Part shown: positions 13,298 to 21,749 of the stretch, in pieces
How positions within the stretch are numbered: position 1 is the first letter of the stretch
How the letters are laid out: every line of letters begins with the position of its first letter
Source: Ktedonobacteraceae bacterium
GTDB taxonomy: Bacteria > Chloroflexota > Ktedonobacteria > Ktedonobacterales > Ktedonobacteraceae
Reading direction: 5' to 3'
Assembly (NCBI GenBank): GCA_035653615.1
Contig: DASRBN010000033.1
Location: 124,001 to 188,000, forward strand
DNA: 64,000 bases
Notes under the pieces: generated by a model
The model's database searches: none
What the model was told of the DNA's origin: nothing
Seen by the model: the letters and a program-made list of their open reading frames with translations, nothing else
Translations under genes and position numbers: made by a program

Positions 13298-15946
13298 TCA
13301 TGGAACCAGCCTGAAGAGACGTGCCAGCCACAGCCGGAATCCCCTCAACGCCGGTTTATTATTAGCAGCGCCGTAATTCGCTGCTATATCAAGTAAACGC
13401 TGGCGACCTGCTTCTTTACGTGCCCTTTCCTCTTCTGCCGCTTCCTGGATCGCGTAACGTTCGCGCTGCTCTTCAATAGCATGCTCAAAATGATCAAGAC
13501 GAATCTGGAAAAGCGATGTTGAGGCTTGACCAGGCGTATTTTGTGCCTGCGATACTGTATCATCCGCAGGCACAGCGGTAGCAGTATCTCCATTGTTCAT
13601 ATGTGCCGTTCCGTTAGTTGCAGTCTCGCCGCTCGCAGTCACCGGCTCCCCTATTTCTGTGACCTGCACGTGACCGGCGGTCAGCTTCGGAGCAATCCAC
13701 TCGCGCAATGCCAGTAGCGAGGCGCGCCGGCAGATCGCTTCGATATCCGCGCCACTACGTCCCCCGGTCATGCTGGCCAGCTTTTCCATCGTGATATCTG
13801 GAGCCAGAGGACGACCGCGTGTATGAACGGCGAAAATGGCCGCCCGTTCGATTTCATTAGGATACTCAAGCTCAACCACAAGATCAAAGCGACCGGGCCG
13901 CAGTAAGGCCGGATCGATCAGTTCAGGACGGTTGGTAGCCGCCACCACGATCACGCCGGTGCGCCCTTCGATGCCATCCATTTCAGTGAGCAGCTGCGCG
14001 ATGACCCTGTCACCGACATGACCATCTATATCACCGCCGCGGCGTGGCGCAAGCGAGTCAAGTTCATCAAAGAACACAATACAGGGCGCGGCCTGTTTCG
14101 CGCGCCGGAAGATTTCGCGTATGCCTTTTTCCGATTCGCCGACCCACTTTGAAAGCAGTTCCGGCCCCTTAATCGAGATGAAGCTCGCTTCGCATTGATT
14201 AGCAATTGCCCGCGCGATCAACGTTTTGCCCGACCCGGGAGGTCCTGATAGCAGCACGCCGCGTGGAGGCTCAACCCTGGCATGGCTATATATTTCCGGG
14301 AAGCGCAAAGGCCATTCTACACCCTCCGTCAACAATGTTTTCACCTTCTCCAGGCCGCCAATGTCATCCCAGGACGTTTCGCTGACCTCGACATACACCT
14401 CACGCGTCGTTGATGGCTCAACTTCGCGCAATGCTACCTGAAAATCGGCCATCGTTATATTCAGGTTTACCAACGTCTCATAGGGGATATATCCACGCTG
14501 GTAATCGATATGGGGAAGGACACGACGTAGCGCGATCATGGCCGCCTCGCGACACAATGCTTCCAGGTCTGCTCCAACGAAGCCAGGCGTCAATTGTGCC
14601 AGGCGCGCAAAGTCGATATCATTCGCCAGCGCCGCGTCGCGACTATGAATCTGCAATATCTCCATGCGCCCGCGTACATCAGGCACGCGCAGGGAGATTT
14701 CGCGGTCGAAACGACCGGGACGGCGTAGCGCCGGGTCGAGCGCATTAGGCTGGTTGGTAGCTCCAATCAGCACCACCTGGCCGCGTGAAGCCAGCCCATC
14801 CATTAATGCCAGCAATTGCCCCACGATACGCCGTTCAACCTCGCCGCCCGTCTCGGCACGTTTGGGAGCCAGCGCGTCCAGCTCATCGATAAAGATAATG
14901 CTGGGCGCGCGTCTTTGCGCTTCCTGGAAGACCGAACGTAGCCGCGATTCGCTTTCCCCGTAGAATTTGTTCATGATTTCAGGGCCATTAATGACGAAAA
15001 ATGCCGCATTCGTCTCAGAGGCGACGGCCCGTGCGATCAATGTCTTACCGGTGCCGGGAGGCCCATATAGCAGCACGCCTTTCGGTGGCTCGACGCCCAG
15101 CCGGTCGAAAACGGCAGGATATTTCAGCGGCAATTCGATCATCTCGCGGATGCGCTGTAATTCCTTGCCCAACCCGCCGATATCCTCATAGCTCACTCGC
15201 CCAAGACCACCGGGGCGTGTCGCCCCACGTGCCTGCGCTCGTACAACGGTGCCCGCATGCACCAGTACCGCTTCCGTGTCGGTCACCATCTGAGGTTGAA
15301 CAGGAGGCACAAGGTTTTCCAGTTCCCCCGTGTTGCGCTTTTGGATAGTATAGCTGGGAGTGGCAGGCGTGGTACTGATGATCAAAAATTCGCGCGGCGC
15401 GGCCCCCGGCGTACCCACGCGCAGTAAATCACCGATAGTCACAGGGAGACCCACCAGGTATCGAGCAATATATTGCAACTCGCTTTCCTGAATGGGAGCG
15501 CCACTGGTCAATGGGAGCAGCGTTATTTTTTCAGCATTGCTGACCCGTGCCTTACGAACGCTAACACGCTCACCCAATCCCGACGCGCTATTCTGCCGTA
15601 CCTGGCTATCCATCTGAATAGACTGCTTGCCACGATCTATAGTGCTGTTGGGGAGAACTTTGGCCGCCGTTGTGCGCGCCCCGGTAATCAGCACGATATC
15701 CCCAGGCTGGCAGCCAAGGCGCTCAATATCATTCGGGTCCACACGCGCGACGCCTCGTCCAACCTGAAAGCCCTCGACGACGACTAGTTGTAGCGTACTT
15801 GCATTTCCGCCCGGCTGGTTTCCTGAATTCTGCTGGCTGTTGTTATTTGGAGCTACAGTCGTATTGTCCGCAACATTCTCCGGTGGGAGTTTGCTGGTCG
15901 TTCTGCCCGTGTGCGGAGTGTCTCCCACGTTTCGAAATTCCTCCAT
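13298..15946 (-). CDS. CDC48/VCP-like AAA+ ATPase with two ATPase domains
   Basis: 882 residues. Residues 1-50 are a Gln/Asn-rich leader. Residues 52-240 match the CDC48 N-domain (VARVDPNDIERLGCQPGDIV). The first AAA domain has GPPGTGKT at 295-302 and FIDELDA near 353. The second has GPPGSGKT and FFDELDS. Both carry the RPGRFD segment. The C-terminal 90 residues are charged and coiled-coil-like. Family members unfold proteins for degradation or remodelling. Archaea and eukaryotes have them universally, bacteria only patchily. The gene stands alone with its own terminator. AGAAGG precedes ATG 15946. Confidence 0.9.
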   Translation of the reverse strand: MEEFRNVGDTPHTGRTTSKLPPENVADNTTVAPNNNSQQNSGNQPGGNASTLQLVVVEGFQVGRGVARVDPNDIERLGCQPGDIVLITGARTTAAKVLPNSTIDRGKQSIQMDSQVRQNSASGLGERVSVRKARVSNAEKITLLPLTSGAPIQESELQYIARYLVGLPVTIGDLLRVGTPGAAPREFLIISTTPATPSYTIQKRNTGELENLVPPVQPQMVTDTEAVLVHAGTVVRAQARGATRPGGLGRVSYEDIGGLGKELQRIREMIELPLKYPAVFDRLGVEPPKGVLLYGPPGTGKTLIARAVASETNAAFFVINGPEIMNKFYGESESRLRSVFQEAQRRAPSIIFIDELDALAPKRAETGGEVERRIVGQLLALMDGLASRGQVVLIGATNQPNALDPALRRPGRFDREISLRVPDVRGRMEILQIHSRDAALANDIDFARLAQLTPGFVGADLEALCREAAMIALRRVLPHIDYQRGYIPYETLVNLNITMADFQVALREVEPSTTREVYVEVSETSWDDIGGLEKVKTLLTEGVEWPLRFPEIYSHARVEPPRGVLLSGPPGSGKTLIARAIANQCEASFISIKGPELLSKWVGESEKGIREIFRRAKQAAPCIVFFDELDSLAPRRGGDIDGHVGDRVIAQLLTEMDGIEGRTGVIVVAATNRPELIDPALLRPGRFDLVVELEYPNEIERAAIFAVHTRGRPLAPDITMEKLASMTGGRSGADIEAICRRASLLALREWIAPKLTAGHVQVTEIGEPVTASGETATNGTAHMNNGDTATAVPADDTVSQAQNTPGQASTSLFQIRLDHFEHAIEEQRERYAIQEAAEEERARKEAGRQRLLDIAANYGAANNKPALRGFRLWLARLFRLVP

Positions 15947-16088: not shown

Positions 16089-17186
16089 TTATCGTTTCGC
16101 ATTCCACAACGTCGTTCTGGCGTCAGCACTCGAAGTGCGACCGGCCTCTATCATCGTGCGCCGTAAAAAGTAGCCCCCCACTAAAACCAGCAGCGATATG
16201 GCAATCCCTCTAGCATTTCTGGTCTTTCCCGGACGACGCTGCAACAGCGCAAGCGTCGTGAGCAGCCAGGGCAAAGCCAATCCGCTTCCAAATACAAACC
16301 GCCAGAATGTCATTCCATGTTGTGCAGGAGCGGTACCGACCAGGGGACGAGCCGCTCGCCCACCTCCTCGTAAGAAAGCGAACAACGCAGTCATCTCGAC
16401 AAGCAAAGCCGCCCATTCAAAACGCTCGAGTTTGTGTAGGGCCTGAGCTGGAGTTCCCGCCAGTCGCAGCACCAGCGAGATCAATGCACTGCTCGTTGAA
16501 ATAGCAGACGAGAGAAAAACTGCCCCCAGCACTTTACTGCGCGACCAGAGTGGAATGCTTGTCGCCGTCAACAGCACGCCGGTGTAACCACCCAGAAACA
16601 GGCCAAAAGCCGTTCCGGGCAGCGCAATCAATCGCTGCGGCAGTGCCGCCAGCATGCGAGCGCCCCACCAGCGTCCCAGTACTCCATCCCTTGCGGCCTG
16701 AATGACGGCCGTAACCCCGCTGAATAACGAGAAACTCAACAGGCCCCATGTGCCCATCGACATCGGTGATTTAACCTTGAAAATGCGCAGCATGTGCAGA
16801 AACCGCTCAGGCCTGCCCAGGTCTTTGATGAGCAAGATAGGACAGGGAATCAAGGCCAGCAATGAAAGATAATAGCCCGCGCGCGCAATAGCCCGGTCAT
16901 CCTGTCCGCCAAAAAGTGATACAAGGCTGGCAATCACATAGTTGCCCGCCGCCAATCCCCCAAAAAAGAAATACCAGATAATCTCCCAGCGCCACAGAGG
17001 CGCTTTCAATACGGGATAATCATAGTAGGATGGCTCTTCTAGCTCCTGCTCTATGTCAGGCTTATACCCCGTCGTCAACGTTGCCAGCCGCTCGGCCAGG
17101 TCAGTAAGCGCGAGACGTTCGCGCACAAATTGCAAGGGCATGCCTGTCCTCAACTGCGACCCAATTGGCACCCGTGTTTCTTGCAT
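16089..17186 (-). CDS. nrfD: NrfD/PsrC-type quinone-interacting membrane subunit of formate dehydrogenase
   Basis: 365 residues. A 70-residue cytoplasmic N-terminus precedes about eight hydrophobic segments, beginning WRWEIIWYFFFGGLAAGNYVI. That aromatic and Gly-rich first helix is typical of NrfD proteins, which pass electrons to or from quinone without haem. It is the last gene of the operon, 17 bases after the iron-sulfur subunit, and has GGGAGG before ATG. It replaces the cytochrome b subunit used by E. coli formate dehydrogenases N and O. Confidence 0.85.
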   Translation of the reverse strand: MQETRVPIGSQLRTGMPLQFVRERLALTDLAERLATLTTGYKPDIEQELEEPSYYDYPVLKAPLWRWEIIWYFFFGGLAAGNYVIASLVSLFGGQDDRAIARAGYYLSLLALIPCPILLIKDLGRPERFLHMLRIFKVKSPMSMGTWGLLSFSLFSGVTAVIQAARDGVLGRWWGARMLAALPQRLIALPGTAFGLFLGGYTGVLLTATSIPLWSRSKVLGAVFLSSAISTSSALISLVLRLAGTPAQALHKLERFEWAALLVEMTALFAFLRGGGRAARPLVGTAPAQHGMTFWRFVFGSGLALPWLLTTLALLQRRPGKTRNARGIAISLLVLVGGYFLRRTMIEAGRTSSADARTTLWNAKR

Positions 17187-17203: not shown

Positions 17204-18163
17204 TTACTCCTTAAAGAATAAAATACCGAGCAGCCCTAATACCATTGCCGCCACAATCGTCCAGAATGAGGCCGGTGCGACATTATTTGATGGCCGGGCC
17301 GGGTTCTCCGGCAGATTGTACACCTCCGGCGCATCCAGCAGCAAAAAGAACGCGTGCAGCCCACCCTCAAGAATATCATCATCGACACCATACAGGCGCG
17401 CCTCAGCAACGCCGCGCCTGTGTAAATCTCCCAGCCGTTCGCGCGCCCGCGCCTTCAGTTGATCGACCTCGCCAAATTGAATCGAGCCGGTCGGACAGGC
17501 CTTGGCGCAGGCCGGTTTCATATCATCTTTCAGGCGATCATAACAAAGCGTGCATTTATGGGCCATGCGATCACCCTCCTCGTCACGCGCAATAACGCCG
17601 AACGGACAGGCAACCACGCAATAACCACAGCCATTACAAATGTCTTGCTGGACATAAACTGTGTCGAACTCCGTACGAATAATCGCTCCTGTAGGGCATG
17701 CTTCCTGGCAGGGCGCATTCGCACAGTGCTTGCACACGTCGCTATGCATCAACCAGCGCTCGGAATTGAAAAAAGGAAGCGCCGTTCCTGGTGGCACAAA
17801 TGGGATAATTCCCTCGCTGCGCGCCTCCTCAATGCGGTCACGCAGGTCTTCCACATTGTGTCCATTCTGGAATCCAGCGCCAACGTGTTCAATGAACTGC
17901 ACGTGTCGCCAGGTACGCGCGCTCAACTGGCCGGTATTATCGTAGCTCGTACCTCTCCAGTCGGGCGCCTCCGCCGGTAACTGGTTCCACTGCTTGCAGG
18001 CCACCTCGCAGGCCTTACAGCCAATGCACAGGCTGGTATCGGTAAAGAAGCCCATAGCAGGCTGGGGCGGTAATGGAGCTTCTTTATTGCCCACCAGGGA
18101 AGATAGCCTCATCTGTAATGGCATTCCTCGTGTTTGCTTCGCTTCAGAAGATTCGATAGCCAT
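17204..18163 (-). CDS. fdhB: Formate dehydrogenase iron-sulfur (beta) subunit
   Basis: 319 residues with four Cys clusters for [4Fe-4S] centres: CIGCKACEVACKQW, CKHCANAPCQEACP, CNGCGYCVVACP, and CTLCYDRLKDDMKPACAKACP in order along the chain. The C-terminal 25 residues (SFWTIVAAMVLGLLGILFF) form one membrane anchor. It should conduct electrons from the selenium/molybdenum (or tungsten) site to the NrfD subunit. The start is ATG 18163 with GGAGG six bases upstream. It begins 14 bases after the catalytic gene's stop. Confidence 0.9.
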   Translation of the reverse strand: MAIESSEAKQTRGMPLQMRLSSLVGNKEAPLPPQPAMGFFTDTSLCIGCKACEVACKQWNQLPAEAPDWRGTSYDNTGQLSARTWRHVQFIEHVGAGFQNGHNVEDLRDRIEEARSEGIIPFVPPGTALPFFNSERWLMHSDVCKHCANAPCQEACPTGAIIRTEFDTVYVQQDICNGCGYCVVACPFGVIARDEEGDRMAHKCTLCYDRLKDDMKPACAKACPTGSIQFGEVDQLKARARERLGDLHRRGVAEARLYGVDDDILEGGLHAFFLLLDAPEVYNLPENPARPSNNVAPASFWTIVAAMVLGLLGILFFKE

Positions 18164-18177
18164 ACAATCCTCCATTT

Positions 18178-21100
18178 TCATGCCAGCCGGCCTGAGCGCA
18201 CATTGCACATGAACGCCTTTGCCTCTTCGATACTCACATTTGGCTCCAATACCATATGAGCCAGGTCATTCGTAATGCTGCCCGTCACCTTGCCCTGGAA
18301 GCCCCAGTGAAACGGCAAACCGATTTGATGTACCACGCGTCCCTTAATGCGCAATGGCCGCATGCGCCGTGTCACCATCGCTCGTGCCTCGATCTCGCCA
18401 CGCGGCGTGCTGATGATGATCCACTCTCCATGGCGAATCTTCCGTTCGGCGGCCAGTTCCGGGCTTAGCTCCGCGAAAAGAGATGGCTGCAGCGCGTTGA
18501 GCCAGGGCATCCAGCGCGTCATCGGACCGCTCACATGATGTTCCGTCAGCCGGTAAGTGGTAATTACAATCGGATAGCGTTCATCTCCTACCGGAGCGAG
18601 GGGATTATCAGGCCGGTCCTGGAAGTACTTTGCCGCGGGATTGCTCTGCTGGCTATATAACGCATTTGTTACCGGAGCCTCTACCGCTTCATAGTGGGCA
18701 GGTAAAGGTCCATCCTTGAGTCCCTTTGGCGCAAATAGCCAGCCCTTACCATCCGGCTTCATAATGAACGGATCGCTGCCCGAATGTGCATCTATCCCGA
18801 CTCCATCTGGAGGGGGTGTATAGCTCGGTGGTTTGTTCACGGGGAAATCAGGAACATCCACCCCGGTCCATTTCTGTTGCTCCTCGTCCCACCAGACATA
18901 CTTCTTGCGTTCCGACCACGGCCGTCCCTGCGGGTCAGCAGAGGCGCGATTATAGAGGATACGCCGGTTGGCGGGCCATGCAAATCCCCATTGCAGGAAC
19001 GTATATCCCTCCGGGTTGCGCGAAGCCGCCCGGTTATTGCCGGGTTCCGGGTACACACCGCTATAGATCCACGAGCCACAGGCCGTACTACCATCACTTT
19101 TTAGCACCGTAAAATTCGGCACGTGTGGGGCATCGCGCAGCGTGTATCTTCGCCCGTTACTATCATCCTTGCTTTCTGGCGGCAGCACGTAATAGCCGTT
19201 AATCTCTTTCAGTACTAACAGCACATCCGGCTCATCGGTAATGCGCGATCCCGGTTCAGGCTCCGTTCGTTCATAGTCCCATGTCAATGCCTGCAGCGCT
19301 CGATCTCCAGGCTCCTTGCTCTCGGCATACAGCTCTTTCAAACGCTTGCCCAGGTGGTAGACAAACCATAGATCAGAGCGGGCATCCAGCGGCGGATCAA
19401 CGGCCTTATCGCGCCATTGCAGCAGGCGCTGCGTGTTGGTGAAGCTACCCTCTTTTTCCGTCGAAGCGGCGGCAGGCAGTAGAAACACCTCCGTCTTAAT
19501 CTTGCTCGAATCCACCGGTTCCGTCTCCGGCCCAAATCCAGGTTGCTTGTACCAGAATGCCGCCGATTCGACTTCATACAGGTCGCGCACCACCATCCAG
19601 TCCAGTTGTTCAAGCGCCTTGCGCTGCATGCGCGCGTTCGTGCTGCCCGCCGCGGGGTTCTGCCCGAACAACAAATAGCCCTTGACCTTGCCATCCAGCA
19701 TCGCATAGCTCGTGGGCAGGTGTGAATGGTCGCCGGTAATCTTGGGCAGCCAGCGATACACGCAATTGCCGTCTTCCTCGTTGGCAGCATCTCCATACCA
19801 TGCCTGTAACAGGCTGCGAATATAAGCCGGAGTGTTTGACCACCAGCCCAGCTTCTGCCCTGTGCTGTCGATATATTCCTGCAAGGTCTGCTGCGACTGT
19901 ACATTTGAGGGTGTATCCCTCTTCTCGCCCCATGTGGTTGCATCAGGAGAATGTTCAGCGCGTGGCTGCGGCTGCACGAATGCTGCTGGCTGTGGCATGT
20001 AACCGGCCAGTAGATCGTACAAAGTCGGCACATCCGTCGAACCCTGGATCGAGGCATGCCCGCGCAAGGCCATGATACCACCACCAGGGCGACCAATATT
20101 GCCCAGCAGCAGTTGCAGCATTGCCGCCGCGCGAATGATCTGTACACCTTTCGATTGCTGCGTCCAGCCAACCGCGTAGCAGATGGCCGAAGTGCGTTCG
20201 CGCCCCGAGTTCTCGATCAGCGTCTGCGCAACCTTCAACCATTCCTCGCGTGGTACTCCACACACCTCCTCCACCATCTCCGGCGTGTAGCGAGCAAAGT
20301 GGCGCCGCATAATCTGGAAAACGCATCTTGGGTGCTGCAATGTAGGGTCGGTTAAAGGCCTCCCATGCTCATCGTACTGATAGTCCCAGCTGCTCTGGTC
20401 GGCATAAGTGCCCGTCTCGGGGTCATAACCGGAGAAGAGGCCATCCAGGTCCTCTGTATCGCGGTAATCCTCACGAATCAGCGTCGCCGCGTTCGTATAA
20501 TTCACCACATACTCATGAAAATAGCCACCGTTTTCAAGCAGGTGACGAATAATCGCACCGAGGAATACGATATCGCTGCCTGCGCGCGTCGCGACATACA
20601 GATTGGCCAGCGCCGATGTACGCGAGTAATGCGGGTCCACGTGTATCACCTTCGCCCCGCGTTCCTTCGCTTTCACGACATTTGCGAAAGCTACAGGATG
20701 CGCCTCCGCCATGTTGCTGCCCATAATCAGAATAGCATCGCTATTCACCAGGTCCTGTGGAAAGGTCGTAGCACCGCCACGTCCAAGCGATGTACCCAGA
20801 CCGGGTACCGTCGAACTGTGTCATATACGGGCCTGGTTCTCAATCGAGACAATCCCCAATCCGCCGCTGAAGAGCTTCTTCATTAAATAATTCTCTTCAA
20901 CATCCAGCGTGGCCCCGCCGAGCGATGCGATGCCCAGCGTATGATTCACCTCGCGACCATCGGGCAGGCGCTCCACAAACGTCTCATCGCGCGTCTTTTT
21001 GATGCGCTGCGCAATCTGCTCCATCGCCCAATCCAGCGACTTTACCTCCCAGTGATCGCTGTACGGCGCGCGATAAAGCACCTGTTTCAAACGACTCGGA

Positions 21101-21387
21101 TTGACTGTGTACTGGAAGGTCGCCGATCCTTTCGGGCAGAGCGTCCCATGATTAATCGGACTATCGGGATTGCCTTCAATATCAATCACCTCACCATCCT
21201 TCACGTACACATTCAAGCTGCAGCCTACCGCACAGTATGGGCACACGCTCTTCACCACCTTCGCATCTTGTATGCGAGGAGCTTTTGTCCGGCTCTCGCT
21301 GCTGAAAGGTTGTGTTCTGGAGCCGATCTGCATTACCTCGGAGACAGCATTTTGTACGGGTTTGGGTAGCATTGAAATCTCTTGCAT
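18178..21387 (-). CDS. fdhA: Selenocysteine-containing formate dehydrogenase, catalytic (alpha) subunit
   Basis: 1069 residues when the in-frame TGA at 20823-20821 is read as selenocysteine (residue 189). Context is ENQARI-U-HSSTV, matching the catalytic U-H of FdnG/FdoG. The frame is unchanged on both sides, family homology continues across it, and a SECIS hairpin follows at once. An N-terminal [4Fe-4S] site has Cys49, Cys52, Cys56 and Cys84. The rest is a molybdopterin bis-guanine dinucleotide domain (RGGATTFPQDLVNSDAILIMG, AEAHPV). It oxidises formate to CO2. No twin-arginine signal follows the chosen start ATG 21387 (GAGG upstream). The operon order is alpha, beta, NrfD. A gene caller would wrongly split it at 20821. 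Confidence 0.93.
20788..20820 (-). promoter_or_regulatory. SECIS element for UGA recoding
   Basis: Directly after the UGA, 18 bases lead to a loop GGTCT closed by a perfect 6-bp stem GTACCC/GGGTAC, extended by CGA/TCG across a small internal loop. From memory, E. coli fdhF has the same GGUCU loop at the same 18-base distance. This is the binding site of the elongation factor SelB. Confidence 0.9.
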
Positions 21388-21496
21388 AGTCCTCTTCTTT
21401 CTCTCTTGCGGCCGTCTAACTCCTCCTCCGCATGGGGCGTAGGGACAGGATACGATTGCTCCAACCAGATGACGGCGCAGCCGTAGTCGCGAGGTA

Positions 21497-21553
21497 GAGT
21501 GCGGATTGATCCGGCTCGCCGGCGTTTCCGGTCGGAATAAGATCATTGAGATC
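21497..21553. repeat. 57-base direct repeat, copy A
   Basis: Starts GAGTGCGGATTGATCCGGC and ends GATCATTGAGATC; copy B at 22065-22121 differs at only a few positions. The two copies are 568 bases apart in the same orientation and flank the long palindrome. Confidence 0.75.
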
Positions 21554-21664: not shown

Positions 21665-21749
21665 GGATTCTTCGCTTCACTCAGAATGACAGGCCCCGGA
21701 CTGTCCAGACCCGCCCGGGGCCTGTCATTCTGAGTGAAGCGAAGAATCC
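21665..21749. repeat. Long perfect palindrome (35-bp arms)
   Basis: Arms 21665-21699 and 21715-21749 are exact reverse complements around a 15-base loop. The arm contains TTCGCTTCACTCAGAATGAC. It has the form of a mobile hairpin (REP/MITE-like) or two head-to-head repeat units. Confidence 0.8.

Follow-up and report, generated by a model that had tools for sequence, protein, structure and literature searches.

The formate dehydrogenase (FDH) complexes FdnGHI and FdoGHI of Escherichia coli have a selenocysteine (Sec) alpha subunit, an iron-sulfur beta subunit with a C-terminal hydrophobic helix, and a cytochrome b subunit (FdnI). The SECIS hairpin of E. coli MG1655 fdhF has a GGUCU loop 18 nt past the UGA, and that of fdnG, which we read directly, has its loop at the same distance but with the sequence AGTCT. 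In Chloroflexi, comparative genomics has already listed the phylum as Sec-decoding (PMC5322559), and a Chloroflexi genome from sediment was reported to contain selenocysteine formate dehydrogenases (PMC3971608). Two papers annotated formate dehydrogenases in Ktedonobacteria with selenium unmentioned (PMC7761526, PMC13374853). NCBIfam already models the alpha family, as NF041513 (Sec formate dehydrogenases, named for Actinobacteria) and TIGR01553 (formate dehydrogenase-N alpha).

A formate dehydrogenase gene with an in-frame TGA

We analyzed a 64,000-nucleotide stretch of Ktedonobacteraceae DNA (the window), which contains an FDH locus with these features:

18178..21387, minus strand: fdhA, formate dehydrogenase alpha subunit, 1069 amino acids including one predicted Sec (from ORF reading, family profiles and a structure-relative search)
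20821..20823, minus strand: in-frame TGA, predicted Sec codon 189 (from translation and relatives)
20792..20808, minus strand: SECIS hairpin, GTACCC 20808-20803, loop GGTCT 20802-20798, GGGTAC 20797-20792 (from sequence reading and comparison)
17204..18208, minus strand: fdhB, iron-sulfur (4Fe-4S) beta subunit with a C-terminal hydrophobic helix, overlapping the end of fdhA (from family profiles)
16089..17186, minus strand: NrfD-type membrane subunit (from family profiles)

On the minus strand, fdhA runs from an ATG at 21387-21385 to a TGA terminator at 18180-18178, with a single internal in-frame TGA in the peptide context NQARI-U-HSSTVPGLG. The ORF list breaks the gene at this codon into 20821..21546 and 18178..20748, and gene callers that halt at TGA would likewise cut it in two. 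The alpha subunit scores above the curated cut-offs of both NCBIfam models (1011 versus 814.2 for TIGR01553, 1482 versus 1400 for NF041513), and among solved structures it lies closest to 1h0h, a tungsten formate dehydrogenase, to the 6sdr/8cm4 group of Sec formate dehydrogenases, and to 1kqf, which is E. coli FdnG. The initial annotation, made from the raw sequence, had described one in-frame TGA in a formate dehydrogenase catalytic gene at the Sec position of FdnG/FdoG, and its coordinates were right. It also gave NQARI-U-H as the FdnG/FdoG context–the position is correct and the motif is that of fdhA here, but E. coli FdnG reads NQARV-U-H.

The hairpin begins after a gap of 12 nt from the TGA, and 18 nt separate the TGA from its loop. 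Its GTACCC/GGGTAC stem and GGTCT loop had been proposed from the sequence and likened to E. coli fdhF in loop and distance, and our reading of NC_000913.3 bears this out; the fdhF stem has another sequence and a bulge that is absent here. The hairpin works like SECIS_3 but falls below membership in that Rfam family (RF01989): its match to the full model scores 34 bits (E = 5.3e-5), whereas the gathering threshold is 63 bits. Folded by itself, the sequence does not stand out (-14.0 kcal/mol, z = -1.2, with 24 of 200 shuffles as good), and the support for the hairpin beyond chance is comparative and does not come from single-sequence fold energy.

Selenocysteine machinery in the genome

The initial annotation predicted SelA, SelB, SelC and SelD in this genome, and held that a genome lacking selB and tRNA-Sec would speak against it. 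Searching the genome (6.59 Mb, 44 contigs), we found selA (contig C26, 577 bits), selB (C32, 362 bits, both parts present; its 668-residue product includes the C-terminal part), a tRNA-Sec with anticodon TCA (C31, 65.8 bits, confirmed by ARAGORN), and selD (C33, 381 bits, some 61 kb away from fdhA), as well as fdhD (C27). The Sec-machinery genes are scattered and form no operon. The selD gene carries an in-frame TGA of its own (ASCAG-U-ASKMG), followed by a GGGGCC-GGA-GGCCCT hairpin:

L018:2445-1387 = contig C33:206603-207526, outside the window, minus strand: selD (from in-frame TGA and hairpin)

On these features, selD is the second predicted selenoprotein gene of the genome. Among 26 matches in a search of the AhpC-TSA family for further selenoproteins, none has a TGA, and in a search of the molybdopterin oxidoreductase family a TGA was found only in fdhA. 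Across the class, selD has a TGA in many genomes and is without one in about a dozen genomes of the window's family; the FDH gene has TGA throughout.

Distribution in Ktedonobacteria and other phyla

Ktedonobacteria are largely aerobic Chloroflexota. In a sample of 47 genomes of the class we found the FDH in 36, including all 29 from the window's own family, and every FDH copy that reaches the site has TGA, with none having Cys. Scores over the cut-off were obtained for selB in 41 of the 47 genomes, and tRNA-Sec and selD were each present in 40; several of the genomes lacking Sec genes are incomplete assemblies. Sec decoding is thus close to universal across Ktedonobacteria, contrary to the hint in the initial annotation that it is patchy in Chloroflexota, where it had in any case been published (PMC5322559). 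Because Sec use in Chloroflexi is published and an NCBIfam model of the alpha family exists, the Sec formate dehydrogenase gene found here, which is a correct and well-supported call, is an ordinary case of a known phenomenon.

FDH loci of the window's family coincide with those of Ktedonobacter racemifer, Thermogemmatispora carboxidivorans and Dictyobacter aurantiacus, and this puts the window in Ktedonobacteria. The K. racemifer and T. carboxidivorans genes are orthologs at about 80% identity; they share the UGA and the hairpin and show no notable difference. Named relatives in Actinomycetota, Myxococcota, Planctomycetota and Eremiobacterota, at about 52-62% identity, also have this UGA and hairpin. 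The ktedonobacterial copies form their own clades, and a switch to Cys was seen in none of them, in contrast to some Actinomycetota.

Several genomes of the family have a second, more distant FDH paralog (about 58% identical) with its own covarying SECIS. In one genome the matched stretch of this paralog (L092; genome G033, C2:2463207-2465497) contains three TGA codons, and this copy is probably decaying. In four genomes of families f2 and f3 (G001, G002, G004 and G005) we found selB and a TGA-containing selD but not this FDH, with tRNA-Sec present in the three f3 genomes. These lineages might have unrecognized selenoproteins, or keep Sec decoding mainly for SelD itself, but we consider this rather unlikely.

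Conservation of the hairpin as RNA

The 42 class loci (36 distinct) show several versions of the stem: GTACCC/GGGTAC in 12, GTGCCC/GGGTAC, with a G-U pair, in 9, GTGCCC/GGGCAC in 8, and GTGCCG/CGGCGC and similar stems in 8. The change from CCC...CTG to CCG...CTC in the stem is a double synonymous compensatory change, in a Pro and a Leu codon. Together with 80 named loci from many phyla, the class loci form a broader set with 92 distinct Sec rows; its 7 Cys rows are homologs with Cys (TGC) at the Sec codon site. All six stem pairs are present in 91 of the 92 Sec rows. The loop is GGTCT in 84 of them and AGT[CT]T in the other 8, and wherever a Sec row has Gly in the loop (84 of 84), its codon is GGT. 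None of the seven Cys rows has an intact stem and loop together. Sec and Cys homologs provide a clean natural control for SECIS constraint. In a quick tree, whose root is uncertain, the Cys rows sit at two separate positions within Sec groups, which suggests Sec-to-Cys switches accompanied by hairpin decay. Taken as sequence comparisons, these data indicate that the hairpin is conserved as RNA, in the pattern that SelB-dependent selection predicts.

Alternative explanations

Could the hairpin be a by-product of the conserved peptide VPGLGT and codon bias, and not a selected RNA element? The encoded peptide does go a long way by itself: in an amino-acid-preserving shuffle that keeps the codons of each column and the peptide of each row, 86.8% of cells are paired (sd 0.9, maximum 89.9, 2000 shuffles), compared with 99.8% in the real alignment, a comparison uncorrected for shared ancestry. 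We nevertheless regard a by-product as very improbable, given that Pro CCC goes with Leu CTG and Pro CCG with Leu CTC in compensating synonymous changes, that the loop GGT is fixed even among high-GC actinobacteria, and that the stem or loop is lost in Cys homologs.

The TGA itself might be a sequencing error or a nonsense mutation, the true gene having Cys (TGC or TGT) or being a pseudogene, since TGA is only one base away from either Cys codon. The initial annotation had named TGC or TGT at 20821-20823 as the contrary outcome; examined through relatives, all class copies reaching the site have TGA, in many independent assemblies, so a sequencing error for TGC or TGT is very unlikely. Moreover, the conserved hairpin is confined to TGA versions and the remaining fdhA frame is open and highly conserved, and we give the error or pseudogene reading almost no weight. 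It is also extremely unlikely that UGA is read in another way–by reassignment, a suppressor tRNA or near-cognate readthrough–as UGA serves as a normal stop elsewhere, fdhA's own terminator included, and the full Sec machinery and a SECIS are present; we found no support for reading without Sec insertion.

The best explanation is that fdhA is a genuine selenoprotein gene whose UGA 189 is decoded as Sec via SelB, and we consider this almost certain. The support, all at the level of sequence, consists of the gene, the UGA, the hairpin and its conservation as RNA, and the complete Sec machinery. The gene has the characteristics of SelB-dependent selenoprotein genes–a UGA at a Cys-equivalent site, a SECIS at SelB distance, and selA, selB, selC and selD in the genome. 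What began as a guess from raw sequence is now a well-supported fdhA annotation.

Partner subunits and proposed electron path

The beta subunit scores 168.5 bits against TIGR01582, below the cut-off of 334.7, and cytochrome b FdnI was not found among the genes tested at the locus, where the third gene is NrfD. In these two respects the locus departs from the canonical FDH-N complex (FdnGHI), and we therefore describe it as pairing FdnG-like catalysis with a membrane partner of the NrfD type. Unlike in FdnGHI and FdoGHI, no twin-arginine signal was seen by eye at the N terminus of alpha; the Sec alpha subunit, the Sec position, and a beta subunit with a C-terminal hydrophobic helix are shared with them. 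In TBLASTN searches, 74 of the 80 named loci have a relative of beta and 67 a relative of NrfD (contig ends truncate some of these loci), so the alpha/beta/NrfD arrangement is common; in the four phyla listed above, most of the named relatives have both neighbors.

In the mechanism we propose, SelB with Sec-tRNA(Sec) would bind the GGUCU hairpin just 3' of the UGA on the alpha-subunit mRNA and deliver selenocysteine at codon 189, where it would become the ligand of the Mo/W-bisPGD center. Electrons from formate would pass through the Fe-S clusters of alpha and then beta to the NrfD-type protein, which is probably the quinone-facing subunit, and from there most likely to the quinone pool. From homology we infer Sec incorporation, formate oxidation, the metal and the electron acceptor; homology and the lack of a visible twin-arginine signal also suggest that alpha is on the cytoplasmic side.

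A long perfect inverted repeat at 21666-21748 of the window (GTCATTCTGAGTGAAGCGAAGAATC) lies upstream of fdhA, separating it from ftsH; the repeat resembles a repetitive intergenic palindrome and attracts false miRNA hits in Rfam. Immediately downstream of the FDH genes, at 13298-15946 on the minus strand of the window, is a gene for a CDC48-type double AAA ATPase with a CDC48 N domain, scoring above the TIGR01243 cut-off; ATPases of this type are better known in archaea and eukaryotes.
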